Source of the DNA: Humulus lupulus
Lineage: Eukaryota > Streptophyta > Magnoliopsida > Rosales > Cannabaceae
Direction of reading: 5' to 3'
Assembly: GCF_963169125.1 (NCBI RefSeq)
Contig: NC_084797.1
Span: 91,421,868 to 91,485,867 of the forward strand
DNA length: 64,000 nucleotides
Shown here: positions 4,119 to 50,122 of the stretch, in pieces
How the letters are laid out: each line of letters starts with the position of its first letter
Position numbering within the stretch: position 1 is the stretch's first letter
The notes under the pieces: generated by a model
The model's input: the letters and a program-made list of their open reading frames with translations, nothing else
Database searches by the model: none
What the model was told of the DNA's origin: nothing
Program-made: the position numbers and the translations under genes

Positions 4119-4127
4119 TAATTAAAA

Positions 4128-6874: not shown

Positions 6875-7655
6875 GAGATAATGGTGTCAAAACTTTACAA
6901 TTTTTGTAGTTAACTACCTATGTAAAATTTTTGACGGTACTCAAGTAATTACAATTCTTGCAGTTAAATATTCACGTAAAAAATTTGACCGTAAAACTAC
7001 TTAAGTAGTGGATTTCCTTATACATAATTTTTTGTCCTTGAGTAAACTGTTAAAACTAACTTATGAGACATGTCTCAGCCTTTAATTTATCTATTTTTTT
7101 TAATTTTTAAATAATTTAAAATTAGTTAAAAATTTAGGAAAAAAATACAAAAATAAATAACATATTTTAAATTCATAAAAATTAAAACATGTATTTTAAA
7201 AACTAAAAAAATTACATTATTTAATGAAAAATCTAACTAAAAATCATAAAATTTTCATTTTAATCAACATGAAATTAGATTGTATTAAGATTTTAATCAA
7301 AATAAAAATGGATTTTTTATGAACTTATTTAGACTTTTCATTAAAGTAATGTTTTTTACTTTTAAAATATTTTATTTTATTTTTTCTGAATTTTTAATTA
7401 TTTTTTAAAATATTTAAAAATTAAACTTTAAGGAATTAATATATATATTTTATATTTTTTCTTGAATTTTTTAATATTTTAAAAATATTTTGGACAAATT
7501 GGAGGCTGACATGTGTCTCATAAGGTTAGTTTTAACCGTTGACTTAACAACAAAGAGTTAAGTGCAAGAATTTTAACTACTTGAGTAGTTTTGCCGTCAA
7601 AATTTTTACATAAGTATTTAACAGTAAGATTTGTATGTTTTTGCCACCATATCCC
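6875..7655. mobile_element. fold-back MULE-type MITE in the host-gene promoter region
   Basis: A 781-bp element with long inverted arms: the left begins GAGATAATGGTGTCAAAAC, and the right in reverse complement begins GGGATATGGTGGCAAAAAC. Similarity extends about 250-280 bp inward on each side, through the paired GAGACA.GTCTCA region. The flanks carry a 9-bp TTATTATTA duplication (6866-6874 and 7656-7664), which is low-complexity and so weaker evidence than in the other two copies. There are no open frames. Confidence 0.7.
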
Positions 7656-8275
7656 TTATTATTATTTGATATAATGAAAGGGTTTCTATAAGTCAAAAGA
7701 GTGATGTATATAGGATTTATTTACATGTATAATTATCAATACAAAGATTGGAAAAGTTACAAAAGTGGATTTTTACCATCCAAAAAATTTAACTGTTTAG
7801 TATAAAAGAATACAAATTAATTTATAGTTTGCTAAAAATATATTTCGATGTCACAGGTATGAGATATCTAAAAATTTAGACAATAAATTTTTTGAACATA
7901 AATACTTATTTGGTACCATGTGTTTTATCAAAATACACACTTGACACCTTAAGTTTATAATAATGATCATTTTGTACCATTTATTTGCAATTGATACTAG
8001 GTTGATACCCTTCGCTGGAATATAGTCAACCAAAATTTCAAATATGATAATTTTACCCCTTATTTTAATAATTGATTTGGTCTTCTTTTGTTTTTGTTAA
8101 TTTAAAATGATTTAAAAATATTTTCTGAAATAATAAAACAAAAAAATGAATTATAAATTAATCAATGAAAAAGTAATTAAATATAAATTTTTAAATAAAA
8201 AATTATATAAATTAATTTTAAAATAAAAATATTTAATAAAACTATTTTAATTAACTAGATAAACATAAACATTTT
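7656..8275. other. AT-rich DNA with a probable one-armed fold-back remnant
   Basis: From about 7895 (AATACTTATTTGGTACC) the sequence resembles the outer arm of the fold-back elements, passes through TAGTCAACCAAAATTTC and becomes an AT-rich body. It is cut off at 8276 by a gypsy LTR. The matching arm is not found on the far side of the nest, so it was lost or lies outside the window. No gene is seen. Confidence 0.4.
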
Positions 8276-13119: not shown

Positions 13120-15489
13120 TGTAACGCCCTACTACCTTAGAGCCGTTACTTAGTGAGTTTAAAATAGAAATCGTGCTTTTGGACTGACTCTACGCAGTTT
13201 CTAAAACCAAAAGTGTGAATAAACCAGAATCTAAGGCTGTACTCTTTGAAAATGTTTAGTTTCATTGAAAACGTTAAGTATCAAACATCTGGGATCCCAA
13301 AATAAGGTTTACAAAATATTTACAACTCAAAAATAGATCTACACCAGGTTAACTATCAAAAGAATGAGTTAATACAGCCATATACAAAATGCCCCCAACC
13401 AAAGCAGTCGGGCAGGCCGAACATGTACGCGCCGCCCCCACGCTCTCCATACTCATGGCCGGTTGACTGACTCCTTGCTTTTACCTGCCACACAGAGCAC
13501 CCGTGAGCCGAAGCCCAGCAAGAAAACCCAAATAGTACATAACATATGCAAATAATATAGCTGACATAATCCACTGATAAACAGGAAAACCATCAGGCTA
13601 AACAAGCACGGCCATGCCGCCCCAGAGGCCTTACCAAAGCCTGGGGTCTCGGTCCTCACCGTAAGGATAACTCATGTATCCCTTGGGTCCCACCCTGGCT
13701 ATAGCATCCCATGTGCTGAGTGTTACTTCCGGCCCCAAGGCCGTACCCGGCCTTTGTCGCTCTCGGCCTTAGCCGTTCATTTCATTATAATTGCACGCAT
13801 AATACATTTCGAAATAATCATTCAAACATATAATAATTCATTCAAGGTCATACATTTGCAAGTAAAACAATCTAGGGCCATGCCCTGCAATAACATTGTG
13901 GGCCCATGCCCTAATCCCGGGTGTTACGGTTTTCTTACCTTTAAATTCGATGGCCTTGATCAACCTGACTCCTTGAGCACGATCCTACTCGAGCCCTGGC
14001 ACTTACCTAAGCAAAACCCATAAGTCAAAGTCATTACCAAACCTTGAGTCCAAAACCTAGCCTCGGGACCAATCCCGAGCCCCCGGGGAGTCCTAGATCC
14101 CCAAAACAAAGTGGCGGAATCGAGCTCCGAACCCTAGGTCAAAATCCCTTCACAAAAGCCCAAAAATCCCCTCTGTGAACAGTGCAGCGCTACAGCGCTC
14201 TAAAGAGGGCGCTGTAGCGCTACAAGCAGAACCACCCCATCAGAAACAGGGGCTAGCGCTACAGTGCCCCCTGACTAGCGCTGTAGCGCTAGTTGCAGCC
14301 AGACCAAACCCAAAATCGCATCTTGCGATTTCCTTCTACCATTTCAACCCCAAACTTGTCCAAACCTTTTCCAAACCCAAAAACACACATATCCACACCT
14401 CACACTCATCCCAAGCATCCCAAGAACTCAATCCCAAGCTCAAGCAACCCAAAACTCAAAATCTAACACAATGAACCCAAAAACCAGAAATTCACTCAAA
14501 CAACAAAGATAGGGTCTTAGAAATCATACCGTGGGTGGAATTTCGACCTTGAGTTGAACCCTAGACCTCCTTAGCTTGCACCTTCACAACCTTGACCTGA
14601 TTTCCCCAAAAATCCCATCCATTTAGCTCAAAAACACAATCCAAACCAGTCAAGCCCTAAAACAGAAATCTCCAAGAACTTACCTCAAATTTATGATGTG
14701 ATCTTGCTAATCCCTTGTAAATCCTCAAGTCTAGCTTAGGATCCTTGATTCTCAGCCTACCCTAGCTCTCCACTGAGCTTGACTCCAAGAAAAAATGAAG
14801 GAAAATGGTTGGGAGAGCCACAAACCGTTCTTAAAAGCCAAACCCTTCTGTTTTCCCTCTTTTCTTTTCTCTTCCTTCTTTTTTTTTTTTTTTTTCAGCC
14901 TATAACTCTTTTCTACAAAATCCACTAAGTATAAAGCCCCCCTTTAATTCATCTCTTACAAGCCTAAAGACCAAAATGCCCTCCCTTAATAATTCTAAAC
15001 CTTTATGTCCATAAAGGGGCATTTTAGTCATATTACCCAAATTCCCACTAATTCCTCAAGTGTTCCTAATAATTCCCGCTCGCTACCCAATACCTGATTA
15101 ATCATCAAATATACATTCCTCATTATCAAGATTAACCTCAATATATTTCCAAATTCTCATTTAAACTCCCCAGGCTTAACCCAAGCCGGGTACAGATTCC
15201 CGCTTTGACTTTTCCGCTAACCCGCTCATTCTAGGATCGTCTCGAGTCATAGATCACAGATATCAACACAGTCATGCCCAAAATGGCCAAATTACAAATA
15301 TGCTCAATCAGGTCTACATGCATACTAATTCACATAGTCATGCATCACAAATAATCAAATAGTCATATAACATGCATTAAATCATAATCATGCATTAAAC
15401 TCATTAAAGTCACACACAGAATCCCATTATGCCCTCCAGGCACACTACTCAAGGCCCTTAAGCCTTAATAGCGAATTTGGGTCGTTACA
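13120..15489 (-). repeat. element 1, 3' LTR
   Basis: Starts TGTAACGCCCTACTACC and ends GGGTCGTTACA; 2,370 bp. The inner edge abuts the polypurine tract (15490-15504, GAGGAGGGGATAGT on the minus strand). Open frames at 13356-13574, 13754-14023 and 14175-14474 recur in the other LTR and are leader sequence, not genes. Confidence 0.95.
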
Positions 15490-20394: not shown

Positions 20395-22768
20395 TGTAAC
20401 GCCCTACTACCTTAGAGCCGTTATTTAGTGAGTTTAAAATAGAAATCGTGCTTTTGGACTGACTCTACGCGGTTTCTAAAACCAAAAGTGTGAATAAACC
20501 AGAATCTAAGGCTATACTCTTTGAAAATGTTTAGTTTCATTGAAAACGTTAAGTATCAAACATCTGGGATCCCAAAATAAGGTTTACAAAATATTTACAA
20601 CTCAAAAATGGATCTACACCAGGTTAACTATCAAAAGAATGAGTTAATACAGCCATATACAAAATGCCCCCAACCAAAGCAGTCGGGCAGGCCGAACATG
20701 TACGCGCCGCCCCCACGCTCTCCATACTCATGGCCGGTTGACTGACTCCTTGCTTTTACCTGCCACACAGAGCACCCGTGAGCCGAAGCCCAGCAAGAAA
20801 ACCCAAATAGTACATAACATATGCAAATAATATAGCTGACATAATCCACTGATAAACAGGAAAACCATCAGGCTAAACAAGCACGGCCATGCCGCCCCAG
20901 AGGCCTTACCAAAGCCTGGGGTCTCGGTCCTCTCTGTAAGGATAACTCATGTATCCCTTGGGTCCCACCCTGGCTATAGCATCCCATGTGCTGAGTGTTA
21001 CTTCCGGCCCCAAGGCCGTACCCGGCCTTTGCCGCTCTCGGCCTTAGCCGTTCATTTCATTATAATTGCACGCATAATACATTTCGAAATAATCATTCAA
21101 ACATATAATAATTCATTCAAGGTCATACATTTGCAAGTAAAACAATCTAGGGCCATGCCCTGCAATAACACTGTGGGCCCATGCCCTAATCCCGGGTGTT
21201 ACGGTTTTCTTACCTTTAAATTCGATGGCCTTGATCAACCTGACTCCTTGAGCACGATCCTACTCGAGCCCTAGCACTTACCTAAGCAAACCCCATAAGT
21301 CAAAGTCATTACCAAACCTTGAGTCCAAAACCTAGCCTCGGGACCAATCCCGAGCCCCCGGGGAGTCCTAGATCCCCAAAACAAAGTGGCGGAATCGAGC
21401 TCCGAACCCTAGGTCAAAATCCCTTCACAAAAGCCCAAAAATCCCCTCTGTGAACAGTGCAGCGCTACAGCGCTCTAAAGAGGGCGCTGTAGCGCTACAA
21501 GCAGAACCACCCCATCAGAAACAGGGGCTAGCGCTACAGCGCCCCCTGACTAGCGCTGTAGCGCTAGTTGCAGCCAGACCAAACCCAAAATCGCATCTTG
21601 CGATTTCCTTCTACCATTTCAACCCCAAACTTGTCCAAACCTTTTCCAAACCCAAAAACACACATATCCACACCTCACACTCATCCCAAGCATCCCAAGA
21701 ACTCAATTCCAAGCTCAAGCAACCCAAAACTCAAAATCTAACACAATGAACCCAAAAACCAGAAATTCACTCAAACAACAAAGATAGGGTCTTAGAAATC
21801 ATACCGTGGGTGGAATTTCGACCTTGAGTTGAACCCTAGACCTCCTTAGCTTGCACCTTCACAACCTTGACCTGATTTCCCCAAAAATCCCATCCATTTA
21901 GCTCAAAAACACAATCCAAACCAGTCAAGCCCTAAAACAGAAATCTCCAAGAACTTACCTCAAATTTCTGATGTGATCTTGCTAATCCCTTGTAAATCCT
22001 CAAGTCTAGCTTAGGATCCTTGATGCTCAGCCTACCCTAGCTCTCCACTGAGCTTGACTCCAAGAAAAAATGATGGAAAATGGTTGGGAGAGCCACAAAC
22101 CGTTCTTAAAAGCCAAACCCTTCTGTTTTCCCTCTTTTCTTTTCTCTTCCTTCTTTCTTTTTTTTTTTTTTTTTCAGCCTATAACTCTTTTCTACAAAAT
22201 CCACTAAGTATAAAGCCCCCCTTTAATTCATCTCTTACAAGCCTAAAGACCAAAATGCCCTCCCTTAATAATTCTAAACCTTTATGTCCATAAAGGGGCA
22301 TTTTAGTCATATTACCCAAATTCCCACTAATTCCTCAAGTGTTCCTAATAATTCCCGCTCGCTACCCAATACCTGATTAATCATCAAATATACATTCCTC
22401 ATTATCAAGATTAACCTCAATATATTTCCAAATTCTCATTTAAACTCCCCAGGCTTAACCCAAGCCGGGTACAGATTCCCGCTTTGACTTTTCCGCTAAC
22501 CCGCTCATTCTAGGATTGTCTCGAGTCATAGATCACAGATATCAACACAGTCATGCCCAAAATGGCCAAATTACAAATATGCTCAATCAGGTCTACATGC
22601 ATACTAATTCACATAGTCATGCATCACAAATAATCAAATAGTCATATAACGTGCATTAAATCATAATCATGCATTAAACTCATTAAAGTCACACACAGAA
22701 TCCCATTATGCCCTCCAGGCACACTACTCAAGGCCCTTAAGCCTTAATAGCGAATTTGGGTCGTTACA
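20395..22768 (-). repeat. element 1, 5' LTR
   Basis: 2,374 bp, nearly identical to the 3' LTR; differences include a longer T tract near 22150. It would carry the promoter: minus-strand GGCTTTATACTTAG near 22203-22217 is the best TATA-like candidate. The leader contains two perfect GC-rich hairpins (21461-21496 and 21528-21567). Confidence 0.95.
21461..21567. repeat. paired perfect hairpins built from AGCGCTACAGCGC
   Basis: Hairpin 1 pairs AGCGCTACAGCGC (21461-21473) with GCGCTGTAGCGCT (21484-21496), 13 bp with a 10-base loop. Hairpin 2 pairs CTAGCGCTACAGCGC (21528-21542) with its exact complement (21553-21567), 15 bp with a 10-base loop. The same pair occurs in the 3' LTR at 14186-14292 with one change. 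Confidence 0.8.
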
Positions 22769-23160
22769 ATATGCAACTGCTCGACTGCCACGGCCGAGGT
22801 TTGAAGGAAAGGAGCTAGGGTTAAACCCTGTTTTGCCGCTTAGACCGGCTGGATGTAGATATCTTCTGTAGTGGACCTTTAAATTATATTTTTGGGATCC
22901 CAATGTATATATTAAACGTTCTAATGAAACGTTATATCTTAACCAAAAATTTTAATCCCTAAACCGCTAATCATACTTAGTTACACGATTTTGGCCAAAT
23001 GACTCGATTAGCGAGTTTAGCACTGTTTACAAGGCACACCGTAATGGTCCCTGGAGTTTAGGGCGTTACAATAGCCCTATTCACGCATGCAAATAAGTTT
23101 AGATAATGATGGTGGATCTTTCCCTCCTATGTGGATGACTTTCAAGTCAATCCCAATCAG

Positions 23161-23340
23161 ATTAGTGATTAACACTTTGAGGTTCTGATAACCATGCTGG
23201 GGCATGTAGCCCTAATCAGATGAATGATTTAACACTTTGAGGTTCTGATAACCATGTTGGGGCGTGTAGCCCTAATTAGATGAGTGATTTAACACTTGGA
23301 GGTTTTGATAACCATGCTAGGGCGTATAGCCCTAATCAGA
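23161..23340. repeat. three tandem 60-bp units inside LTR B
   Basis: Three consecutive 60-bp units (23161, 23221, 23281) share AACACTTTGAGGTTCTGATA and GTAGCCCTAAT with a few substitutions each. Two units of about 37 bp containing TGAGTGACTGATAAGTGAGT follow (23341-23413). All lie in the LTR leader region. Confidence 0.85.
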
Positions 23341-24758
23341 TGAGTGACTAATGAGTAAGTTACTAACTTGAATCAGATGAGTGACTGATAAGTGAGTCAC
23401 TAACATGAATCAGATGAGTGACTGACGATGCAGTCACCTGAGCCTTCTGGCCCTGGCTCTAAGTGACTAGCCATTAGGCTATACAAGCGCTTTTAGTTTT
23501 CATCGAACTTGAGGCCGGTCAGGCATTAATGCTCATGATGAGTCATTCAATGCTTATGTTGATTAGATCTAATCATTTCGGCTTGTGTTAAACACATCAA
23601 TGTCATTCTTGACTCTTAAGCCAATACCATAGGCTTGTGCCAATTTCTGACTCATGGGTCAGTGCCATACACAAGTAAGAAATGCAGCCAGGCATATATC
23701 ATATGTCAAATATCCAAATGTAGGGCATTCAGCATGCTTACTTAACAATCAATAGCATAATTAAGATCATGCATAAATACATAGACTTAAGCTCTGATCA
23801 ATCTCATATTCAACATTCATGTCATGCCCTAATCACATGTTTCTCATGCATCACATGCATCACATACTGGGTGCAGTTTTCTTATCTCTAGTTCGAGCGA
23901 GAAATAACAAATGAACGATCCTTAAGAATGAACGATCCTTTAATCCCTTAGCGGTCACCTATTCATAACCAAATATGGAATCCAATTAATGAAATCAACA
24001 ATAAAAGGTTCTTGACCTAAACCTCACTCCCAGGACCTCGAATCGTACTCAAATGGTCAGTAGATTCGATCCCGAACCTTAGAAATTGAAACCCCGAGCC
24101 AAAAACCCTCAGAAGTGCCCAAAACATGAATCAGGAAAAGCAGGATAGCTCTACAGTGCTGCCCCCCTAGCGCCCCAGTGCTACAACCAGAATTGGTTTG
24201 CCCTGGCTAATGCTATAGCGCCCTCCCTTGGGCACTATAGCGCTAGAACCAGGCTTAACCAACCCTGGTTCTTCCTCCTTCAAGTTTTCCATTTCCAACC
24301 TTCAAAACATGCTTCCAAATCTCACTCAAACCCTCAAATGAACCCAAATATCTACTCTACATTCCCTAGGCATCATAACCCAAGCAACCTTTGCCAAAAA
24401 CTCCCATCACTTCTCATTATCCCAATCAAAATCCCAACTGAACATCAAAAGGAAAAACAGAGCAAAACCATAGTTCTAATGGCTAGAAACTTACCTCAAG
24501 CTCAGCATCACACCCTCTTCAATGGTAGATCATAACCCTATACCATCAATGTTCAATTCCCTAGCTTGGTTCCTCAAATGGAGCTTCAAAATTCAAAGAA
24601 AAAAAAAGGGAAAAATGATGAACGGGAGGAAGAAAGAAGCTATGCTCTGTTTTCTACAACCTTCTACAACTTCTAAAGGTTGATATAATCCTTAAGGTCA
24701 AAATACAAAAATGCCCCTAGGTCATTTAAAGTCCTCTTATGGCCACCAAGTGCAAAAC

Positions 24759-27032
24759 TGTAACGTCCTAAACTCCAGGGACTGTTACGGTGTGCATTTT
24801 AAACAGTGCTAAACTTGCTAATCGAGTCATTTGGCCATAATCGTGTAACTAAGTATGATTAGCGGTTTAGGGTTAAAAACTTTTGGTTAAGATATAACGT
24901 TTCATTAAAATGTTTACCATATACATTGGGATCCCAAAAATATAATTTAAAGGTTAATTACAACAAAATATTTACAACCAGCCGACCTAAGCGAAAAAAT
25001 AGGGTTTAACCCTAGTTCCTCTTTAAACCCTCAGCCGTGGTGGTCGAGCAGCCGCATATGTACACATTGTCACCTAAGCTCTCCAACTCAAGGATGGTCC
25101 AGCTTTCTTTTGCCTTTACCTGCACCACATAGCACCCGTGAGCCGAAGCTCAGCAAGAAAACTTAATATGCTCATGAAAAAGTAATAACATGTTACTAAT
25201 TCATAATAGGCATGCCTAGCAGTAATAACCCTACTCATGCATGCAAGCAGGTATAAATAAAAGTTTATGGAGTCCCGCACTCTGAGTAGATAACTAGTAA
25301 GTCTCTCGCTCTGAGGTAGATGACTAATAAGTCTCTCTGAGGTATACAACTAATAAGTCTCTCTAATTAGTTGACTAATAAGTCATTCTTTGTTTAGATG
25401 ACTATTAAGTCTATCTCTGTGTAAATGACTAATAAGTCTCTCTGAGGTATATGACTAATAAGTCTCTCTAATTAGTTGATTAATAAGTTATTCTCTGTTT
25501 AGATGACTAGTAAGTATATCTCTGTGTAGATGACTGATAAGCCTATCTTAGTTAGATGATTGATAAGTCTATCTCAATATGGATGACTAATAAGTCTATC
25601 CCGGTTAGATAACTGATAAGTCTATCTCGATCAGATGACTAATAATTCTATCTCGGAGGTCCCATACCCTCCTAGCCATGTGACGTGTAGGTCACCTTAG
25701 CCTTTTCGGCTTTGGCTCTAAGTAACTAGCCTTTAGAATAGACAAGCGCTTTTAGTTTTCATCGAACTTGAGGTCGGTTCGGCATTAATGCTCATGATGA
25801 GTCATTCAATGCAGATGTCGATTAGATCTAATCTTTTTGGCTCTGCGTTCTTGATGCTTATGCCGCTCTTGACTCATAGGTCAATAACACACGACCAATG
25901 CTCAATACCGCTGTCGAACTTGACTAGTAAGTAACAGCTTCACAGCCAGTTCTAGCACCATTACCGATTCTTACTAGTAAGTCAGTTCCACGCATAAGTA
26001 AGCAATGCGACCAGGCATATATCATATGTCAAATATCCAAACACAGGGCATTCAACATGCTTACTTAACAATTGCTAGCATAATTATGATCATGCACCAA
26101 CACAGAGACTCAAGCTCTGATCAATCTCATATTCAATATTCATGGCATGCCCTAACCACATGTTTCTCGTGCATCACATGCATCACATACTGTGTGAAGT
26201 TTTCTTACCTCTGGTCCAATCACAGGTTACCAATAAACAAGCCACAAGCATGATCCTGATTCCAAGCCCCTAGCGATGCCCTAATCACAACCATAATATA
26301 AAACCTCATAAAAAACACAAAATCCAATCCAAGCTTAAAAACTTAGAACTTAAAACTTGGATTACCTTCAATTATGACATTTCCCTACTAAATCCTCTGG
26401 CTAATAAGCTTCTAATCTTCCCTAGAATCGCTATGCCTCGATCCTCGCTTGAATCTGAGTCCTAGAACTCAAGTTTCCTTAAAAAATGCGATCGGGAGAC
26501 GAAAATGGAACTTTGAAGGAGAGAAAATGTTCTTTTTATTTCTTAACAGGTTACTTCAAGCTTAAGTAGCCTCAAACAAATCCTAATGCTTGGGGTCTCG
26601 AAAACGCCGCCGGGGATAAAATAGTCAAAACTTCCAGAATTTCCCCCTGATCTTATTAACTCCCAATTTATCATCGAATATTATTCCCATTACCCAATAA
26701 CCCGGTAATGTGCTAAATACCCATTGAATCACTCCGAGTCAAGTATAAGTCCCGTTGTGACTTTCCCACTAGCTTACCTCCTAGGATTGTCTCGTGCTGA
26801 GTAACCCTAGCATAACCAATTAATAAAGAAGCACCACACATATACCACATATATGCAAAATATGTCCAAAATGGCCAAAATATGAAAATCACCAAATTAA
26901 TCAAAAATGGGTTCACATGCATATTTAATACACCTAAAGATGCATATTATCATTTAATTGCATAATAAATCAATTATGGCCCGACCTCCTAATCAAGGTC
27001 CTAAACCTTATTAGGAAATTTGGAGCATTACA
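24759..27032 (-). mobile_element. solo gypsy LTR A (minus)
   Basis: 2,274 bp, starting TGTAACGTCCTAAACTCC and ending TTTGGAGCATTACA, with a perfect 5-bp duplication AAAAC (24754-24758 and 27033-27037). No internal region. It sits in the U3 part of element B's 3' LTR. It contains a minisatellite at 25268-25660. Open frames such as 25116-25349 and 26713-26922 are LTR sequence. Confidence 0.85.
25268..25660. repeat. minisatellite of GACTAATAAGTCTCTCT-type units
   Basis: About a dozen imperfect units of 26-35 bp share GA(T)GACTAATAAGTCT followed by a variable 8-15 base spacer. A higher-order period of about 105 bp is visible: the run starting GACTAATAAGTCTCTCTGAG at 25322 recurs at 25427. It occupies the same leader position as the 60-bp repeats of LTR B. 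Confidence 0.8.
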
Positions 27033-40500: not shown

Positions 40501-41598
40501 CCTTTTGAGTGAAGAAGTATTTTAAATTGTTGTGGTCAATGTATATCTCACGCTTCTCACCATATAAGTAGTGTCGCCACACCTTCAATTCAAAAACCAC
40601 TGCTTCAAGTTCTAAATCATGTGTGGGGTATCTCTACTCATACACCTTCAGCTGACGTGATGCATAGGAAATCACCTTCCTTTTCTGCATAAGAACACAA
40701 CCCAGGCCCTGCCTCGAGGTGTCACAATAAACCACAAACTTGTCCCAATTTGTAGGAAGATTCAAAACTGGAGCGGTGATCAAACTCTTCTTTAGCTTCT
40801 GGAAGCTGTCTTCACACTTGTATGACCATATGAACTTCTAATTCTTTCGTGTTAACTCTGTCCATGATGACACAATATTGGAAAACCTCTCCACAAAGTG
40901 TCTGTAATACCCTACCAATCTCAAGAAACTTCTGATCTCTAATGCGTTCTTCGGTCTTGGCCAATCTATGACCGCCTCAATCTTCGCTGGATCTACCATA
41001 ATTCCATCCTTACTGCCTATGTGACCTAGGAAATTCACATGTGGCAACCAAAACTCACATTTCTTGAATTTTGCATACAGCCTGTGCTCTCTAAACGTCT
41101 ATAGTACCAATCTGAGGTGCTGCTCGTGTTCTGTCTCTAACTGAGAGTATATTAGTATATCATCGATAAAGACGATCACAAACCAATCCAGGTAATCTTT
41201 GAACACTTTGTTCATCAGATCCATAAATGCTGTTGGGGCATTAGTTAGTCCAAATGACATCACCAAAAACTCATAATGCCCATACCTAGTGCAAAAAGTT
41301 GTCTTCGGTATATCCTCCTCCCTGATCCTCAGCTAGAGATCGAAGATCTATCTTGGAGAATACCGTACTACCCTGCAATTGATCAAACAAGTCATCAATT
41401 CTTGGCAAAGGATACCAGTTCTAGATAGTAAACTTGTTTAGTTCTCTATAATCGATACACTTCCTTAGAGAACCATATTTCTTCTTCACAAAGAGAACTG
41501 GTGCGCCCCATGGCGAGAAAATGGGCCTGATAAAACCCAAGTATAATAACTCCAGTAGTTGTACCTTTAGTTCCTTCAATTCAGCTGGAGCCATCCTG
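37576..41598 (-). pseudogene. element E pol remnant (C-terminus, RNase H, RT), integrase mostly deleted
   Basis: The polypurine tract and pol C-terminus lie at 37576-37767; solo LTR G follows, then pol resumes at 40139. A frame at 40309-40094 joins the linker after RNase H (TLLERIKE, DPQLGQIRG) directly to the pol tail (THVLSYGDLE), so the integrase core is absent. RNase H is at 40361-40600 and the RT/RNase H connection at 40838-41047. [10 protein letters not shown] of reverse transcriptase is readable near 41140-41170. Several stops and frameshifts are present. The sequence ends at 41598, where the CACTA element is inserted. Confidence 0.85.
37768..40138 (-). mobile_element. solo gypsy LTR G (minus)
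   Basis: 2,371 bp, starting TGTAACGCCCTGGATAGCC and ending TTGGGTCGTTACA, with a perfect duplication CTGTT (37763-37767 and 40139-40143). It contains AGCGCT-type hairpins near 38810-38925 and the CCACC/GGTGG stem-loop at 38719-38743. No internal region. The open frame at 38613-38870 is leader sequence. Confidence 0.92.
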
Positions 41599-41611
41599 CA
41601 CTACACCAAAT
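41599..41611 (+). repeat. left terminal inverted repeat of the CACTA element
   Basis: CACTACACCAAAT matches the right terminus CACTACAAGAAAA in 10 of 13 positions. The duplicated CTG lies just outside. Confidence 0.88.
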
Positions 41612-42045
41612 ACCTCTTTCTATAATACATAATTATAAGCTAATTGGAAAAGTATTAAAATAGGTAACCTAAAAAGTTAGAAAGTGGTAAATTAAAATGG
41701 AGGGAAACAAAAAAAAAATTGCTGGGTAACCCACTCAGTTTCTGCCTAGCCCTATTCTCTCAAAACCCAATCCCTAATGATGCCTCTGCCTCTTTCTCTC
41801 ACACTTGGTGTCTCGGTTCCCTCTCCATTGATCTTTCTCTCGCTCTCTCTCTCTCAGATCCTTTCTACTCACTCTCCGTCGTGTGAGCTGTTGGAGCACA
41901 CCATGCCAGAGGAGCACTCTCTCCATTCCGTTTAGTCACTGGAGCACACTGGGACGAGTCATGCCGGTACAAGTCACGGTGCATTATCTCCCTCACGCGA
42001 GTCATGGCAGTATCTTCCCAGCTGAAGAAAGAACAACTTTGTGAG
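41612..42045 (+). promoter_or_regulatory. possible captured promoter and leader exon of the CACTA element
   Basis: The stretch between the left terminus and the first captured exon is CT-rich, like plant 5' leaders (CTCTCGCTCTCTCTCTCTCAG at 41838-41858), and ends at a good donor GTGAG|GTATT (GT at 42046-42047). A short frame (ATG at 41777, about 52 codons) and another ATG at 42004 (14 codons to the donor) are present. A transcript starting here could splice into the captured exons. This is an inference from composition and one splice site. Confidence 0.35.
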
Positions 42046-42166
42046 GTATTTGTTTTTTTCTTATTTACTGTTTTTATCATTTAATTTTCTTGTATCTTTT
42101 TTCTTCTTATTTACTATTTTGTTTTAGCAAGGATATATAATGGAATTTGGATTGGAAAATCTGCAG

Positions 42167-42274
42167 GGATCATGACGAGGCAACCTTTGGTCTTGCAGCT
42201 TAACAAGAAAAATGAGGGAGCTCAGAAATACGCCGAGTTTCTTCACCTTTGCAAGAGGAGATTCACAGATTTTG
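42167..42274 (+). pseudogene. DRP1: captured exon of a dynamin-related protein (DRP1 type)
   Basis: A 108-bp exon between CTGCAG (AG at 42165-42166) and TTTTG|GTATGT. It encodes GIMTRQPLVLQL, then KYAEFLHLCKRRFTDF. This is the piece of the dynamin GTPase domain around the switch-I (G2) threonine; plant DRP1 proteins read very similarly here. The threonine is kept, but typically conserved neighbours are changed (RQP, LCK). Neither the P-loop nor the later G motifs are present nearby, so it is a single captured exon with flanking intron sequence and no GTPase function. Confidence 0.85.
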
Positions 42275-42956
42275 GTATGTGGTGTATAACTTAAAAATAA
42301 ATTTGATTCGTATCTTTTTGTACATGATCAACTTGTTGCTCATTCGTTCTCGTGTTGATTTTTAGCTTGATAACTTGTGTTTACATGAAACAGGAATTGA
42401 TGTTCAGTTTTTAAGTTACATAATTATTTTTCCAAAACTTGAGAAGAGAGCTGGCAATTAGGAGTCAGAAAATCTAAGGTCAAATTTTGGTAAAGTTCTC
42501 GAAACTTATGATTTTTATGAATTTGATCCCAGAAACTTGGCCTCTGTTTTTGGGGAAATTTCTCATGCATGCCACTAGAACTGTTGTCTTCATCCATGTT
42601 GTGTTGTTTGTCCCCAGCTAAGAAAGATACACATCTGCAATCGAAGTAACAAAGTATTGCATGCTTGTTGTTTGATAAAATGACTCAACCAAACAAAATT
42701 AAAAAAGTAAACTTAGGCTTGTTTACTAATAGATTAATAATTTTTGGTAAAATGATTCAGCGAAACAAAATTAAAAAAGTAAACTCAGGCTTGTTTACTA
42801 ATAGATTAACTACGTATTGTCATTTGAGGAGATTACTCTGAAGTTTATTACTGTGAGCGAACACGTAACTGCGAATTAATGTTCTGGGTGATTTTGTTTA
42901 TTTAAATGATGGATGCATAGACTTTCAGTTTTATTAAGTACTTTGCCTACTTGCAG
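42275..42956. other. captured intron/unknown DNA with a 67-bp tandem duplication
   Basis: There is no coding segment I can support. Two copies of a 67-bp segment (42671-42737 and 42743-42809) share AACAAAATTAAAAAAGTAAA and differ at about five positions. The stretch ends in TACTTGCAG, the acceptor of the first VPS18 exon. Confidence 0.5.
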
Positions 42957-43064
42957 GATGCTTTGAGAACTTTTTTACTACAAAAGATTGATAATCTTGC
43001 CAATGGTGATAAGTGCCAAATAACAATGATATCAACTTGGGCAACTGAATTATACTTTGACAAG
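42957..43064 (+). pseudogene. VPS18: captured VPS18 exon a
   Basis: After TTGCAG come 36 in-frame codons beginning DALRTFLLQKIDNL and containing KCQITMISTWATELY. This matches the C-terminal helical half of plant VPS18, a core subunit of the HOPS and CORVET tethering complexes at vacuole and endosome. The exon should end in a donor, but the bases after GACAAG are CTTTTA instead of GT, so normal splicing from this exon is lost. It is followed by a poly-T and TG repeat tract. Confidence 0.9.
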
Positions 43065-43468
43065 CTTTTATTCCCCACACCCCCTTTTTTTTTGGGTGTG
43101 TGTGTGTGTGCACGCATAAAGTTTGGATTTAAGAACTCTGATTTCTCTCTTTATTTTTTGTCCTGCTGCCTAGATGGGTTATAGATTTTTTATCCAAAAT
43201 GAGATATTATAAAAAAAAATTGCATAATGACTAAAAGAAGGGAGCAGAAATTTCCCCAAAAGAAAAAGGATTCTAACACAAACAAACCAATAGTACAACT
43301 CAGCATAAAAAAACTAACTTATCTGATAGATATGAGTTCTAACTTTGTGAACACAGAATTATACATATTAGCATTTATGGCAGAGCATTTTGATTTTACT
43401 TTCCTATATAATTTATTACTATTTGCTGTTGTTTAAGATAAATTTCAAACTTGATCTTTCCATTTCAG

Positions 43469-43611
43469 ATAAATCGTCTACTCTTGGAAGATGACACTGC
43501 TTTGGATAACCATAGTTCAAAGTACCGATCAATAATAAAACAGTTCTGTGCTTTTCTATGTGAATGCAAGGATGTGTTGGATGAGGCAACTACAATGAAA
43601 CTTTTACAGAG
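43469..43611 (+). pseudogene. VPS18: captured VPS18 exon b
   Basis: A 143-bp exon between CATTTCAG and CAGAG|GTAACT. It encodes INRLLLEDDTAL and CECKDVLDEATTMKLLQ and continues exon a in the order of the parent protein. Reading frame and splice sites are intact, and the phase (two bases, AG) fits exon c. Confidence 0.92.
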
Positions 43612-43935
43612 GTAACTATCTACAGGATCCTATGTAAGTTAATCACATTTTTCATAAAAGTATGAAAGCAATAGCTAATTCTTTTCTGTTTTAGTTTAGA
43701 TGGAAGTTTTGGTTAGTATTTTAGTCGCTTTTATCTGTGGATGCTTACCTCTAACATGATAGGTGTTATGACAGTATGTGTCACTTTTTTTAAACATTAA
43801 TAATAGTTGTGCATAAGCAGAGCTGTAATTAACTTCTTCTTTTTTTATTTTTTTTTTACATAATCACGTGATCTTTTTTACGTTCTTATTTAGATGAAAG
43901 AACGCTAGAATTAATTATTTAGCAATATGTTGCAG

Positions 43936-44014
43936 TTATGGCCGGGTTGAAGAGTTAGTGTTTTTCGCCAGTTTAAAGGAGCAGTATGAAATCTTAAATC
44001 ATCATTTCATACAG
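43936..44014 (+). pseudogene. VPS18: captured VPS18 exon c
   Basis: A 79-bp exon between TGTTGCAG and TACAG|GTGCTT. It encodes YGRVEELVFFASLKEQYEIL and HHFIQ, directly following exon b with matching phase. The next VPS18 exon is not found before unrelated cargo begins, so the capture stops in the following intron. Confidence 0.92.
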
Positions 44015-44940
44015 GTGCTTCATCATTCTTTTTTGTTCCGCATTTCATTTTTGTGATTGCTGTCATCATAAATCGCATTTACTAATGTTTTATACTACTT
44101 TAATCCATAAATACACATACACACTCTTCCTCCTTTATTTCTTTTTTCCTTTTTTCTCTTCCAAGTAAATATATCATCACTTGAAATCTATAAAATATGT
44201 TTATGTTCACTTTACGGCTGATATATACAGGATTATGTTTTTTTTATTTTCCGTATAGGACTTACTACTTGTTAAACTCAAAAACTATTAGAACTATCGT
44301 TCTTTTCTATTGAACTTTTTAGTTCACTTCTATATCCTAGGCCAATTTTTTTAAGTTGACAAGTATTTAATTTTATTTTCCCCTATGGATTCTGCCATTA
44401 GCAAGGAAAAGCAATGAATGCTTCTGGAAGTCATCTGTTTCTTTAGATCTTCAAGTATAGATATCCAAGAATTTCAATTAAAATTGATTTTTACCCTAGA
44501 TTTTTTAATTCGCTTAAATCTTTGTAACACTTGATTAGAAGCAACCAAATATATTAATAAATGACCCTATATATAAATTACCTATAGAACTAGTTCTCGG
44601 AGTAAGCCTGAAACAAAAAGAAAGAGCAGCCCAACTATTGGAAAAACCACTATGAACAAAGTTCATCCAACTAGAAATACTTCAGTTAGGCCTGGATTGA
44701 TTGGTTTCTTGGAACCACAAAATGAGTGATTATTATTTTGGTTTTTTTATTAATTTTCTTAGGAAACAAACAGAGGTATTGTTTGTTTGTTGAGAAACTG
44801 GGGGAGAATTCTTCACTTGTTCAAAAATTCTGCAACCAAAGCAATCCAACGATGCATGATTTGATTCTTTTGCTATTCTTATGTTGTTATATATACATGT
44901 TATTACAAATAATTTTTTTTGTTTCTTCTTTAAATTACAG
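44015..44940. other. captured intron DNA between VPS18 and MTP fragments
   Basis: AT-rich with no supported coding segment. The boundary between the two captured loci must lie here, since it starts in a VPS18 intron and ends at the acceptor TAAATTACAG of an unrelated gene. I cannot place the join. Confidence 0.5.
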
Positions 44941-45110
44941 GAGAAAAGGACTACTATGAAAGACAACTTCTAACTCTGAAATCTTTTGAGGAAGTTGACT
45001 CTATAGTGCAATTAGAAGTCAATGATGAAGATGATCTTGACGAACAAGCTCAACATGAAAGAGCCATGAAGATCTCTAATTATGCAAACATAATTCTCTT
45101 GGGACTTAAG
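44941..45110 (+). pseudogene. MTP11: captured exon a of an MTP11-like metal tolerance protein
   Basis: A 170-bp exon between AAATTACAG and CTTAAG|GTAAAA. It encodes KDYYERQLLTLKSFEEVDSI, an acidic stretch, then EQAQHERAMKISNYANIIL. This is the N-terminal region and first membrane helix of the Mn-type plant cation diffusion facilitators (MTP8-11 group), closest by eye to MTP11-like proteins of Golgi/prevacuolar membranes. The frame is open and both splice sites are good. Confidence 0.88.
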
Positions 45111-45317
45111 GTAAAATTTGGGTATTTTTATAAGAAATATTGGCTGAAGTAAGTTCTTAAGAGCTTTTACAGCTCCAGTCGTATCTGTAACGTTTTAGAT
45201 TATATAGACCATGTTTTAGAGTATTTGAGTTCTTGCATCAAATAATATTTTACGGCCTTATAGAACATTCATTCCCACTTTACAAACTAAAATTGAAACT
45301 TATGTTTGATTCTGCAG

Positions 45318-45516
45318 ATCTATGTTGCTATAAAGAGTGGGTCCATAGCCATTGCAGCATCAACACTAGATTCTTTGCTGGATCTCATGGCTGGTGGCAT
45401 ACTTTGGTTCACTCACTTGTCAATGAAAAGTATAAATATTTATAAATACCCCATTGGCAAATTGAGGGTGCAGCCTGTTGGCATAATCATTTTCACTGCT
45501 ATCATGGCAACACTAG
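45318..45516 (+). pseudogene. MTP11: captured exon b of an MTP11-like metal tolerance protein
   Basis: A 199-bp exon between TTCTGCAG and ACTAG|GTACAA. It encodes AIAASTLDSLLDLMAGGIL, with the DxxxD metal-site motif of membrane helix 2, then YKYPIGKLRVQPVGII. It continues exon a in frame. The remaining helices and the C-terminal metal domain are absent, so no working transporter can be made. Confidence 0.92.
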
Positions 45517-46431
45517 GTACAATCTGTAGCTTAATTTGTTGATAGTTTTCACAGATTTTTCTCTTTCTTGCTTCATTTCCACATTGAAGGTTGTTTGGCT
45601 TCCTTAGTGAACACATATATCATCTAGTGTGTTTTACTCTGTTTGTTACAGAGTAGATAAATTCATGAGTCTTGGATGAAACAAGGAAAAAATAAAGCTT
45701 ATTGAGTGACTTTGTTTTATTAAATTTGTCTAAAGAAGACATGTTATTTGATTATGGAAATTTTCTTTGGTCACTTTCTGCCGGAAATCTCTAAAGTATA
45801 TGGTCATGATTACCAACTACAGACACTTAATAAGGAATTACAAGAGTTTTGACTAAGCATTGGACATGGTAATGGTACATAACCAAATAAGAGGGACTTT
45901 TTCTGCTTATCCTACTGCTGCTCTTAGAGAAGAGTTTTCTAAATATATAATAAGGGGGAAAGATGCTTATAAAGTTATAATTTTACTGAATAAAAAATAT
46001 TAAGTGTATGTTGGAGTAGCTTAGGAAGGAGAGGTTTGTTACAGGTAGGCAGCTGTATAATTATAAAACTAACAAGTCAGTAAATTAGCTTATGTAAGCT
46101 TTGAATTTTAGTTCTTTTTTCTTCTTTTTTAACTATTTTTTTTTTTTTTGGATTTGGGAATAAGTTATATCAGAATGTATAATTGCTTGGTTTCATATTT
46201 TCTAAGAAAATCCTTTTAATTGTTTAATTTCTCTTGTGTTGAGGAGGTTTTGCTTTTGTTTCATTATTTGGCCACACAACATATGATATATATATACAGT
46301 TTAATTTGTAAAGTAAACCTTTTTTTAATCTCATTTGCCATTAGTTTTGTTTTAATCACTATTTGTGAAGTAATTTCTTAGTAAGAAAAAAAATAAGAGG
46401 CTCATTTTTGTGTGTTTTGGTCAAATTTAAG
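45517..46431. other. non-coding cargo between MTP and SCP2 fragments
   Basis: AT-rich, with no exon I can support. It must contain the join between the MTP and SCP2 donor loci. Confidence 0.5.
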
Positions 46432-46533
46432 GTTGGAAGGAGAAGAAAAGCCTGATGCCACATTTTCCTTCAAGGAAGATGATTTTGTCAAAATTGCATT
46501 TGGAAAGATAAATCCCCAGATTGCTTTCATGAG
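46432..46533 (+). pseudogene. SCP2: captured exon of an SCP2-type sterol carrier protein
   Basis: About 102 bp from a possible acceptor TTTAAG (a poor polypyrimidine context) to CATGAG|GTTGGT. The open frame reads EGEEKPDATFSFKEDDFVKI then AFGKINPQIAFMR, the lipid-binding core of small plant SCP2 proteins (peroxisomal lipid carriers). The conserved GxMKIKGS block that should follow in the next exon is not seen. The 3' boundary is firm; the 5' boundary is uncertain by several bases. Confidence 0.85.
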
Positions 46534-47369
46534 GTTGGTTTACACCTCTTAATTTTTCTAAGTCAAATTGATCAAAGCACTCCTCCTCTGTGACAATAAT
46601 TTAAAATTTAAGTTTTTGCACCTCACTTAAAATTTAAAGGGTCTCATGAGAGTAGTAGTGTTTGGTATTAGACCTTTCATAGATAATTTGATTCTTTTTT
46701 TTTTCCATATAGATTATACATGCTTATTTATGCATATTATTGTTCAGCAAACACTTTGGCTAAACTTGCATTGTTCTATTGTAGAATCTTTGAGATTTTG
46801 TCTAAACTTGTTGTGATGTGCATTATAAGTGTATCCCACAGTTTACTTGTTACTTAATCAACTTTAAGCTCATTTTGTGTTCTTTGTATGTTCGTCATAG
46901 TCAATTCATTGTCTTTATACAGATGAAATGTTACTGTCTATGCCTCCTGACTTATTCTTTTCAAGTTGAATTTTTTAGTGTGTGTGATGTTATCTGGTGA
47001 AAACATACTCATGACTTATTCCTATGGTGTCGGACTCTTAATCTTTGTTCTTATAGTGTCAGGATCTTAATATTAAGTTGTAAATGATAGTCTGCCAGCG
47101 TGGGGATTTTTATAGTATTATTTTATATAGTTGTTCGATCTCACTAGAAATAGACATGATAAATGATTTCTACTGTGATCTGTATACTTCACTCGCATTT
47201 CTACACAAATTTAGAGTTTGACTTACTCATTGTCATTATACCTGATATAAATTTGATTGCTTTGAGTTTTTTTTTTCTTTTAACAATACTTACTTTAAAT
47301 TTGGTTACTTGAGTTTTTGTTTGTTTTATTTCTTACTATTTTGGGCTACTGTTTTATCATATACAACAG
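46534..47369. other. non-coding cargo between SCP2 and clathrin fragments
   Basis: T-rich, intron-like DNA with no supported exon. The small open frame at 46818-47000 has no recognisable domain. The join between the two donor loci lies here. Confidence 0.5.
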
Positions 47370-48293
47370 ACCTCACTATATCATTGGTCAATTGAAGGTT
47401 TGTCACTTTATTATTATTATTAAACTTCTCTGAGGGCCTGCTTTGTTTTACAATACAATTACTTTTGTTTTAAAATTTTGGCTGGTATGTGCACTATATC
47501 TTCCTTGTAGGTGAGACTGAACCTGTGAAGATGTTCGAAAGAACTGCTAATCTAGCAAACAATCAGGTTATAAACTATCGATGTGACCCTTCTGAAAAGT
47601 GGTTGGTTTTGATTGGAATTTCCACTGGTGCTCCTGAGGTATGTTCTTATATATTGTAACATCATTTATTAGATTGATACTCATATGTAGATATGCTTTA
47701 TGTATAGATTTTTCATAGGGAAATCCTCATCAAGCCAATATATTTGATGATCTTGGTATTTATATGTTACATTTGTAATGATGTAATCCATGTAGTTAGA
47801 ATAGAAGGGACTGCATCTCCTATAACTAGTTAGTGCCAAAGAGCCTTGTCCAAATGGTCCTTTTGAATTTTCCTGTAACATGCTTTAATACCTTATTGAT
47901 TGCTTGGCAGACTTTGAGCTTTAATTGTCCTATTTATTGTACTTGATTTATTTCTTTGCTCTGTTTGCAGAGGCAAAATCTAATCAAAGGGAATATGCAA
48001 CTCTTTTCAGTGGAACAACAGAGAAGTCAAGCTCTGGAAGCTCATGCTGCTGCTTTTGTACAATTTAAAGTGCGTAAATTATCTTCTCCCTCTCTTTATC
48101 TCTCTTAATTCTCTTGTTTTTTTATCGCACTTGGTATGCATATCATATATGCATATTTGTTGATTGATTGTCGAATTTATACAGGTTCCATGGAATGAGA
48201 ATCCTTCTACTCTCATTTCCTTTGCAACAAAGACTTTTAATGCTGGCCAAATTACATCAAAGCTGCATGTTATAGATCTTGGTGCCCAACGAG
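47370..48293 (+). pseudogene. CHC: captured clathrin heavy chain segment, four exons
   Basis: Exons are 47370-47397 (TSLYHWSIE; 5' edge uncertain), 47511-47638 ([17 protein letters not shown], then [14 protein letters not shown]), 47971-48069 ([20 protein letters not shown]) and 48185-48293 ([19 protein letters not shown], then [11 protein letters not shown]). All four have GT/AG boundaries and join in frame: phase 1 after the first, phase 0 after the second and third. They cover part of the N-terminal beta-propeller of clathrin heavy chain, the adaptor-binding domain of the vesicle coat. No stops interrupt them. Upstream and downstream exons are absent, so this is a captured genomic segment with introns rather than a retrocopy. 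Confidence 0.93.
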
Positions 48294-48880
48294 GTTAGCT
48301 TAGTATTATTTAATTTACCCCCTTTATTAAAAAAGACAAAAATGTTTGATAAGTCTAGAATTTTAATCAGAAATTTATTCCTTTCTTTCTGTCTTGATGA
48401 ATAATTTTTACATCCTTTTGTTGGGAGAGTGCTCTTATGCATGGAGTGATTTGAAAACAACTTCTTGTTTGATGTTGCCTTTAGTGGTTTGGTTTAAGCT
48501 ATTATGGTATGCATGTGGAGGACTGATTATAGAGGCTTGGGCATGTCTAGTTTCATCCTCTACTTATAAAATCCAGTCTTTCTTACTTTATTTGTGCCCT
48601 CCTAGATAGATGTTAAAACTAGTGACATGTGATTATTTTACTGCTTGGCTATTCATGCATTTTTCTGTTGAAATATGTTTTACTGTACATTGGCTTTAAG
48701 GTCTGTTAACTATTTTTTGCACTTTGGAATTGGCACAAATGGAAATCTTCAATTTGTTGTGTTTTGATTATTTAAAAATTTGCCAAGAGTTTCTTTTCTT
48801 GATAGGCTTGTTTGATTTTTCTATAAATTTTTTGGTTTACCTTGTTCTTTCTATTGATATTTTTTTTCTTTATGCTCTAG

Positions 48881-48966
48881 GCGGTGTGTTTTGCTTTAAT
48901 GGGCATTGGCAGCTCATTTCATGCTCAAGAAACTGCTGTGAGGGGGCAATTGGAGAGTCGAGTGTG
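48881..48966 (+). pseudogene. candidate sixth captured exon, unidentified
   Basis: An 86-bp open segment between TATGCTCTAG and GAGTGTG|GTAAAT. It reads AVCFALMGIGSSFHAQETAV then RGQLESRV. The amphipathic, protein-like composition and good flanking splice sites suggest a real exon of another gene, but I do not recognise the family. In a different frame it lies inside a 223-codon open frame (48724-49395) that looks like chance. Confidence 0.45.
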
Positions 48967-49660
48967 GTAAATACTGTTCTTTTCCTGTGTACTGTATTAT
49001 GTTTGGGGTCATTTGGGACATGTTACTTTCTGATTCTTTTAAGATCTGCACGTAAAAGCCTCAACTTATCTGTTTGCATACATATGTTGACAACATCAGG
49101 TTCTGGCCTTCGGGTACTGTGTGACTTCAAGCCATCAACTACAGAGGTTAACATAACAATAAAGCTTTTACTTGTGTTGCTTCTCTCGACAGTGGAGTTT
49201 TGTTGTCTCAGTTCACGTTTTGGTGGCATGATAGACATGGAATCTATCGAGGACGTGGCTAATATTTCTAATGTGTCTGGGATTACACCCATTCTTTGCA
49301 ACTGTACAGTCATTGCTGACCACTGGTCCCTCTCCCTGCAACTGTACAGTCATTGCAACTGTTGTCTTTTAATTTGGCAAATACTAGGAGCTTAGGCATA
49401 TATGCACTATTAGGGGAGAATATTTAGTGCTGAAAATTGTAACTTTTCAATATGTTGAATATTTAAGACTACTTGAATACTTAAAGAACATTTTGTTGTT
49501 GATGACAATATTGAATGTTTTAAACTAATTTGTGGATTGTTAATACAATGTTGAATGTTTTTACTTTTTGTTATTTGAAAATCAAGTTCATTTGATGATG
49601 CTAGTATATATTAGAAAGCTAATTTTAATTATATATAAAAAAATTAAAATATAATAGAAT
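48967..49660. other. right-hand cargo of the CACTA element, unidentified
   Basis: Mixed-composition DNA with a 20-bp direct repeat GCAACTGTACAGTCATTGC (about 49298 and 49340). Coding-like composition continues to about 49390, but no family is recognised on either strand. From about 49400 it becomes AT-rich and leads into the subterminal repeats. Confidence 0.4.
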
Positions 49661-50106
49661 AAATTAGTGTTATACTAAATTAGTGTTATATAAATGAATA
49701 TATAATGAGAATTTAAACTTATCTAAATATTAAAATAATACAAAAATTACACTTTTTATGTAAAGAATTTTGTTTTGCAAACTTCATTATATAACACAAA
49801 TAATGTGTTATACTAAAGTGTAGTATAACACAAAAAATGTGTTATACTAAAGTGTAGTATAACACAAATTTATAAGTATTGAAATGTGTTATATAATCGA
49901 CTATAAATAATAAAATTAAACACTTATCTATTTCTTAAAATAACACAGAAAGTGTGTTATCGTTGACAGTATAATAACACATCTGTGTAACAATGATAAA
50001 GTGTTATGTAAAGTACCCTGACCTACGATAACATACTCGATCTTAGCACATCAAAAAGTGTTATGGTATGTTTTGATAACACATTTTTGGTGTTATTAAA
50101 AGCATT
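49661..50106. repeat. subterminal repeats of the CACTA right end (GTGTTAT / ATAACAC)
   Basis: The heptamer GTGTTAT occurs about nine times and its complement ATAACAC about six times in some 450 bp, often as inverted pairs such as ATAACACAAATAATGTGTTAT (split across 49790-49812). Clustered short subterminal repeats are where CACTA proteins of the TNPA type bind. The left end has no equivalent cluster. Confidence 0.85.
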
Positions 50107-50119
50107 TTTTCTTGTAGTG
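50107..50119 (-). repeat. right terminal inverted repeat of the CACTA element
   Basis: The reverse complement from 50119 reads CACTACAAGAAAA, the standard plant CACTA terminus. The duplicated CTG is at 50120-50122. Confidence 0.92.
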
Positions 50120-50122
50120 CTG

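Follow-up and report, generated by a model that had tools for sequence, protein, structure and literature searches.

The window analysed here, a stretch of 64,000 nucleotides from Humulus lupulus, contains a complete CACTA element of 8.5 kb with host-gene cargo. It is very probably a non-autonomous CACTA of the En/Spm type, the interior of which has been replaced stepwise by pieces of unrelated host genes, exons together with introns. This agrees with the initial annotation, which described a Pack-CACTA with at least five unrelated donors. The ends are conserved, and three of the five parents have been found with a match at the level of introns.

Ends and insertion site of the element

The element starts with CACTACACC at 41599, and TTGTAGTG terminates at 50119. 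Its framework is as follows.

41599..50119, + strand: complete CACTA element, its cargo captured from host genes (CACTACA ends, CTG duplication, empty site, Pfam scans)
41596..41598, no strand: left CTG target-site duplication (single CTG in the empty site)
50120..50122, no strand: right CTG target-site duplication (single CTG in the empty site)
41599..41729, + strand: left family terminus, ~131 bp (end-locus comparison)
49417..50119, + strand: right family terminus, ~703 bp, with TGTGTTAT-type repeats (end-locus comparison)

The terminal inverted repeats begin with CACTA, reading CACTACACCAAATACC on the left and CACTACAAGAAAAAATGC on the right when that end is read inward. The unbroken match between these two covers the first 7 bases only. 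In the right end examined, TGTGTTAT-type repeats occur in both direct and inverted orientation at 49790-50108.

The host of the insertion is a gypsy retrotransposon. CACTACA termini and a perfect CTG duplication inside it had been noted from the outset. Both are present, and another gypsy copy supplies the uninterrupted site. This copy adjoins family member L072 on contig C4, aligns free of gaps over both flanks and has one CTG. The suspicion of an assembly artefact at the CTG junctions does not hold, and the insertion site is real. Three-base duplications flank all three elements that were read at both ends: CTG in the window, TGA at L072 and TAC at L069 (the latter two read by eye from the element ends).

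How might such an element move? The longest stop-free read inside it is 231 aa, and no transposase family was found among the 15 window reads scanned with Pfam (of 154 reads of at least 30 aa). Movement would follow the cut-and-paste route, the enzymes being provided in trans, perhaps by an autonomous relative, and the conserved ends (~131 bp on the left, ~703 bp on the right) would be the sole requirement.

Captured gene pieces and their parent loci

Between the two termini lies a series of host-derived segments.

41730..42505, + strand: 5' cargo, comprising a CT-rich leader, the DRP1 exon and the sequence after it (end-locus comparison)
42167..42274, + strand: DRP1 (dynamin-related protein 1) exon piece, 108 nt (protein match)
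42462..42802, + strand: segment between the DRP1 and VPS18 parts, source not assigned (marker-position lists)
42671..42809, + strand: tandem duplication, ~72 bp (both units contain AGATTAA)
42803..44503, + strand: VPS18-derived segment, introns included (alignment to G000:C2:38.35 Mb)
42957..43064, + strand: VPS18 exon piece 1, 5' splice site changed from GT to CT (parent comparison)
43469..43611, + strand: VPS18 exon piece 2 (protein match)
43936..44014, + strand: VPS18 exon piece 3 (protein match)
44688..46112, + strand: MTP-type (cation efflux) segment, introns included (alignment to G000:C8:14.606 Mb)
44941..45110, + strand: MTP exon piece 1 (Pfam, splice and frame table)
45318..45516, + strand: MTP exon piece 2 (Pfam, splice and frame table)
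46432..46533, + strand: SCP2 (sterol carrier protein 2) exon piece (Pfam)
46992..48409, + strand: clathrin heavy chain (CHC) segment (alignment to G000:C10:102.89 Mb; 267 nt of the parent absent at 47361-47366)
47370..47397, + strand: CHC exon piece 1, 28 nt, 5'-truncated (parent comparison)
47511..47638, + strand: CHC exon piece 2 (protein match)
47971..48069, + strand: CHC exon piece 3 (protein match)
48185..48293, + strand: CHC exon piece 4 (protein match)
48410..49416, + strand: cargo after CHC, donor not named, the 'sixth source' (Pfam reads, copy comparison)

The element thus holds 11 exon pieces, each with an open frame. The initial annotation spoke of ten, but its own list sums to 11. 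Its claim of five unrelated donors on one strand is borne out, as all 11 pieces lie on the + strand and the donors (DRP1, VPS18, an MTP-type transporter, SCP2 and CHC) are matched by protein or Pfam comparison. The DRP1 exon matches 'Dynamin-related protein 1A' (3t34; E 3.9e-10), the VPS18 exons match 'Vacuolar protein sorting-associated protein 18' (8dit; E 1.8e-6) and the CHC pieces match clathrin heavy chain (E 4.4e-31). Pfam matches over the cut-off were obtained for Cation_efflux (E 4.6e-9), SCP2 (E 2.2e-6) and Clathrin_propel (E 1.5e-12), and no Pfam family was hit by the peptides of DRP1 or VPS18. The VPS18 segment begins with the same AGATTAA that both ~72-bp units contain, a case of junction microhomology. 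For 48410-49416, none of four reads lying wholly or partly inside has a Pfam family, and parts of this stretch are common to six other loci (L040, L041, L044, L045, L046 and L062).

Genome searches for the parents of DRP1, VPS18, MTP and CHC located the last three, on C2, C8 and C10 respectively, and no parent for DRP1. The VPS18 parent aligns over 1726 columns at 92%, the MTP parent over 1476 columns at 94% and the CHC parent over 1045 columns at 93% plus 375 at 84%, in each case through introns. Breakpoints between the captured segments and these parents are sharp, and at each locus coding sequence of the same gene extends past the captured part. Two limits are less exact. The left limit of the MTP segment is blurred, its alignment beginning at 44673, and the 5' limit of the CHC segment may lie further left, as the parent stretch compared starts there.

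At the C8 locus, MTP-like reads recognised by eye flank the captured part on both sides. However, none of the six listed matches to ZT_dimer, the C-terminal domain, falls on C8, so the locus cannot be claimed as a complete gene. Another MTP-like locus (L076, C3:217.099 Mb) was set aside in favour of C8:14.606 Mb, with an aligned identity of only 67-76%. For CHC, C10 is taken as the parent because the captured stretch scored 93% there; a second clathrin heavy chain gene at C9:49.95 Mb does not figure in the set scored for this stretch (40 of 79 candidates). No DRP1 parent recognisable as a gene was found among the 40 of 66 candidates scored for 42150-42800. One of these loci, L079, was followed up and carries an element left end. 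The SCP2 parent was not located, the genome searches covering the other four donors.

Could the whole arrangement be an ordinary gene neighbourhood, or an assembly chimera, that mimics a transposon? This is barely credible. Parents lying side by side were one way in which the capture reading might have failed, and the three that were found lie on C2, C8 and C10. The empty site is uninterrupted, the order of the markers recurs at two other loci, and no point in favour of a neighbourhood or chimera emerged from this analysis.

Splice sites, reading frame and selection

A different possibility is that the element is an exon-shuffled chimeric gene whose sense exons, once spliced, form a stable mRNA for a novel fusion protein that is under selection. 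In its favour, all 11 pieces share one strand and have open frames, and both splice sites are kept in nine. There is also a precedent. Tgm-Express1, a soybean CACTA element in F3H/Wp, is described as carrying fragments of five unrelated genes that are spliced together, and its exons as being spliced with those of the host gene (PMC1947982).

The details at the splice sites are as follows. GT directly follows 10 of the 11 pieces, the exception being VPS18 piece 1, which has CT where the parent has GT and lacks GT in eight of the nine element copies compared. At CHC piece 1, the 267 nt of parent sequence are gone just upstream, and the start of the parent exon falls within the lost stretch. These two pieces account for the figure of nine out of 11. 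The DRP1 and SCP2 sites were judged by AG/GT alone, with no parent for comparison. The statement that nearly all splice sites and frames are intact therefore stands for the sites (9/11) and for the open frames of single pieces (11/11), but not for the joins between donors, where the frame is kept in none of four (phases derived by hand). Because of this, splicing all pieces yields no single reading frame. Judged from the sequence, any transcript covering all pieces would be chimeric, with a broken frame. A spliced, frame-broken RNA from the cargo is possible; a chimeric protein is not supported.

Selection can be read in two ways. Between element and parents, dN/dS is 0.39 (Fisher p 0.003; three of the five donors, VPS18, MTP and CHC), which alone is readable as constraint and as such favours a chimeric gene. 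However, the same value can arise from constraint acting on the branch of the parent. Changes private to single copies in the DRP1 and VPS18 exons comprise 41 missense, 5 nonsense and 11 synonymous, counted at sites readable in at least four element copies, which excludes the MTP exons. The resulting nonsynonymous to synonymous ratio is 46:11, against a site ratio of 3.7:1 (VPS18, MTP and CHC exons). These private changes look neutral. Given the broken joins, the lost GT, the five private stop codons and this ratio, a chimeric gene is highly improbable. The captured cargo looks like passenger DNA rather than a new gene, and most likely does nothing for element or host.

Family members and cargo modules

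The concern that no second element with these termini might exist is easily met. First-look candidates numbered 375 for the left end and 1428 for the right; 40 were scored for each, and each end has at least 40 matching places, window included. Just the ~131 terminal bp are shared with the window at 22 of 29 other left-end loci, where similarity ends no further in than 41729, and just the ~703 terminal bp at 23 of 29 other right-end loci. Interiors turn over accordingly. When loci are grouped if 400 nt or more align within ~1.5 kb, 30 left-end loci fall into 9 groups and 30 right-end loci into 10, singletons included. Ten proteins from other cargos, one of them entered twice, were compared with Pfam. 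A DEAD_2 piece in L030 is just over the cut-off (21.4 bits vs 21), a kinase piece (L047) and a TNP1-like piece (L053) fall below it, and seven have no match. The TNP1/En/Spm match in L053 (E 0.003) is the sole hint of an autonomous element, none having been recovered.

The search for further copies with the same cargo was productive. Among the matches listed, the order LEFT-DRP1-VPS18-MTP-CHC occurs at no fewer than three loci, the window and two more, and the modules are also found separately from each other. The underlying table was compiled by hand from lists that contain parent genes too. It uses 29 of 29 rows of one cargo listing, 40 of 40 for 42150-42800, 19 of 65 for VPS18 (piece 1 only), 40 of 42 for CHC and 21 of 41 for MTP (omitting short 50-base matches, second pieces per locus and C3:217.099 Mb), with 40 of 42 left-end and 40 of 81 right-end rows (omitting secondary matches within the same loci). 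The segment 42462..42802 occurs without the DRP1 part at eight listed places, four of which adjoin VPS18 pieces and four of which do not. L072, complete at 4.8 kb, carries DRP1 and VPS18 but shows no alignment to the MTP-CHC part of the window element. Element bases 1-907 are found in L014 and L079 too, at 89%.

Perhaps, then, the element was put together from two modules that also occur apart, DRP1-VPS18 and MTP-to-CHC. They may have been joined when neighbouring elements were mobilised together as a single unit, or through a template switch in the course of repair. A fusion of neighbours finds no support in the window element, where the best candidate for an internal end remnant (29.7 bits) does not rise above 30 shuffles (mean 31.8, max 38.3). 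An extra segment in L071 matches the right end at 49.7 bits (62%), a score reached by 0 of 30 shuffles; it is possibly the remnant of an internal end, in a stretch that is AT-rich and repetitive. Outside exons, the window element and L071 diverge by 0.036 in VPS18 and 0.034 in MTP. Such similar values are expected if both inherited the combination.

The abundance of the cargo raises another possibility, namely that transcripts of its copies might feed small RNAs acting on the VPS18, MTP and CHC parents. Each module was scored at no fewer than 17 to 40 places with long matches, the longer ones mostly 92-99% identical to the window, and the parents are 92-94% identical across most of the captured stretches. 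No sequence feature requires a small-RNA role, and we regard one as unlikely. Broader still, and a shade harder to credit, is the proposal that the family might form a genome-wide exon-shuffling pool, in which very numerous elements with interchangeable 5' and 3' modules, derived from many host genes and kept in sense orientation, would recombine and give spliced multi-donor RNAs and from these small RNAs on essential trafficking genes.

Passenger cargo of this kind has close relatives elsewhere. Gene-fragment capture by CACTA elements, five donors included, is already known from Tgm-Express1, described as one CACTA with five unrelated host-gene fragments, retained introns and canonical GT/AG (PMC1947982). 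That element is 5.7 kb, lies within a gene and is transcribed, whereas the window element is 8.5 kb, lies within gypsy and is known from sequence alone. The Tpn1 family of Ipomoea nil is likewise described as multi-copy and mostly non-autonomous, with conserved ends and captured host sequence inside (PMC5105172); the host differs, and the likeness is one of description. Pack-CACTA and other Pack-TYPE elements share terminal inverted repeats and coding DNA from several loci, and the acquisition models given for them are applicable here (PMC8903248). According to the same source, Pack-TYPE CACTA elements are mostly low copy in rice and maize, unlike the modules counted above. Among the titles and abstracts listed in a literature search, none describes the window element or its family, which is not proof of absence.

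Stepwise capture from several genes is well resolved in this family. Base-level breakpoints at three parents, elements with partial modules and copies with the same order allow the order and mechanism of capture to be derived from sequence. There is also a warning for annotation: many VPS18, MTP and clathrin heavy chain 'exons' in the source genome are transposon cargo.

Element ends, insertion site and cargo

The CACTA element (41599-50119) opens with CACTACACC at 41599, closes with TTGTAGTG at 50119 and has CTG on both sides. The gypsy copy beside L072, another family member on contig C4, holds the empty site of this insertion. Its alignment to the left flank runs as far as CTG (86/99 bases alike), and that to the right flank starts at the identical CTG (82/101). 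Duplications of 3 bp, identified by eye on terminal sequences, also accompany the two other elements for which both ends were read (L072, TGA; L069, TAC). L069 (oriented 547-5221) has a window-type left end and DRP1-VPS18 cargo within its perfect TAC duplication; on the right, its sequence shows no alignment with the right end of the window element. Other repeats in the window are as follows.

13246-15404 and 20521-22645: shared short tandem arrays, recurring about 7.28 kb apart
23155-23437 and 25280-25653: tandem arrays with 60/37-bp and about 26/53/105-bp units

The spaced recurrence of identical arrays suggests that the first pair represents the two LTRs of a single retrotransposon.

The element shows the Pack-CACTA features that were tested. 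Five donor genes, DRP1, VPS18, cation efflux/MTP, SCP2 and clathrin heavy chain (CHC), contribute eleven exon pieces, every one on the + strand. A Pfam scan of the DRP1 and VPS18 peptides matched no family. Hand-derived phases (end/start) are 1/0 for DRP1/VPS18, 0/1 for VPS18/MTP, 1/2 for MTP/SCP2 and 2/0 for SCP2/CHC. Because none of these four inter-donor joins matches in phase, a single fusion protein across all pieces is excluded under simple splicing (exon skipping aside).

Parent loci, breakpoints and age of capture

In the window's own assembly (2.48 Gb, 121 contigs) parents were located for three of the five donors, VPS18, MTP and CHC. No DRP1 parent was found among the 40 candidates, of 66, that were scored for 42150-42800. 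For VPS18, all six candidates were scored and both of the only two Pep3_Vps18 matches fall at C2:38350102-38351529 (-). The captured exons (C2:38.348 Mb) come after them on the same strand, and this parent stretch (L008) aligns to 42803-44503 at 92%. The top non-self MTP DNA match among those listed (C8:14606895-14607486, 97%) adjoins further Cation_efflux sequence at C8:14605598-14606056; no ZT_dimer appears at this locus among the matches listed. The MTP parent stretch (L077) aligns at 94% to about 44688-46112, with MTP-like reads, recognised by eye, on both sides of the captured portion. The CHC match (C10:102898258-102899191, 93%) is followed downstream by matches to Clathrin_H_link and, seven times, to the Clathrin repeat. 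In its parent stretch (L078), identity to the element is 84% over 46992-47361 and 93% over 47366-48409. Between these parts the element lacks 267 nt of the parent, comprising one clathrin-like read and the beginning of the exon that ends as CHC piece 1.

The Clathrin_H_link exon occurs at 41 places in the assembly among matches listed, although clusters of clathrin-repeat matches point to no more than two CHC genes. CHC pieces other than those in the window therefore seem to be amplified as well.

Parent homology ends sharply at both ends of VPS18 and at the 3' ends of MTP and CHC. The MTP 5' breakpoint is blurred, and the CHC 5' limit is the edge of the fetched parent stretch. The VPS18 segment starts with AGATTAA, a motif also within both units of the 72-bp tandem duplication immediately preceding it. 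All six further copies of the element that were inspected carry this duplication; it was not seen in the VPS18 parent stretch compared (L008).

Non-exon divergence from the parents is 32/1054 for MTP, lower than for VPS18 (69/1334; Fisher p 0.010) or CHC (40/659; Fisher p 0.003). If rates were equal, this would place the MTP capture later than the other two. Exon divergence for the three donors (47/1063) is about that outside exons (141/3047; p 0.86). Relative to the parents, their exons in the window carry 28 nonsynonymous changes in 827 sites and 19 synonymous in 226 (dN 0.035, dS 0.089, ratio 0.39, Fisher p 0.003). Copy-private changes in DRP1 and VPS18 exons, counted over nine element copies plus the parent at sites readable in at least four copies, comprise 41 missense, 5 nonsense and 11 synonymous. 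These small numbers give no indication of constraint after amplification. A GT-to-CT change follows VPS18 piece 1 in 8/9 copies; GT is kept in L073, the most diverged copy compared.

Modules, family and acquisition

The order LEFT-DRP1-VPS18-MTP-CHC, on an identical strand, is found at no fewer than three loci: the window, C10:120.80 Mb (these markers spread over at least 23 kb) and C7:44.81 Mb (L071), where alignment to the window element runs through the SCP2 piece. Partial combinations (DRP1-VPS18 alone, MTP-CHC, MTP-RIGHT) are also present among matches listed; there a missing module carries little weight, save in L072, an element read whole. L071 (oriented 5664-9058) exceeds the window copy by about 3.4 kb in the SCP2-CHC interval, and L069 shares some of that sequence. 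This extra segment has a 62% match to the family right end that beats 30/30 shuffles.

A first look turned up 375 candidates with the left 122 bp and 1428 with the right 720 bp. In each set 40 were scored, so these figures are not element counts. The best 30 loci per end were read (n=29 each with the window itself omitted). At the left end 22/29 lose the match by about base 131 and 7/29 extend beyond; at the right end 23/29 match the last 701-703 bases only and 6/29 extend beyond. About 1.5 kb of adjoining sequence forms 9 groups over 30 left-end loci and 10 over 30 right-end loci (singletons counted), some of which, in short or broken elements, may be flank or nested insertion. Other members seem to carry different host genes, as in L030 (DEAD_2 helicase piece, 2487-2909, E 2.1e-4, barely above cut-off). 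Close to the right end of L053 (oriented 978-1259) is a weak TNP1/En/Spm transposase-like read, under cut-off, possibly the trace of an autonomous relative.

How might such cargo be acquired? Joint mobilisation of adjacent insertions would suit the observed modules. Yet no internal ends exceeding chance were found in the window element; L071 possibly retains an internal end remnant. Tgm-Express1 is described with five unrelated fragments spliced along with F3H exons (PMC1947982), and in Tpn1 elements host sequence substitutes for the interior (PMC5105172). The combination of a big family, recurring modules and visible intermediates is somewhat out of the ordinary.
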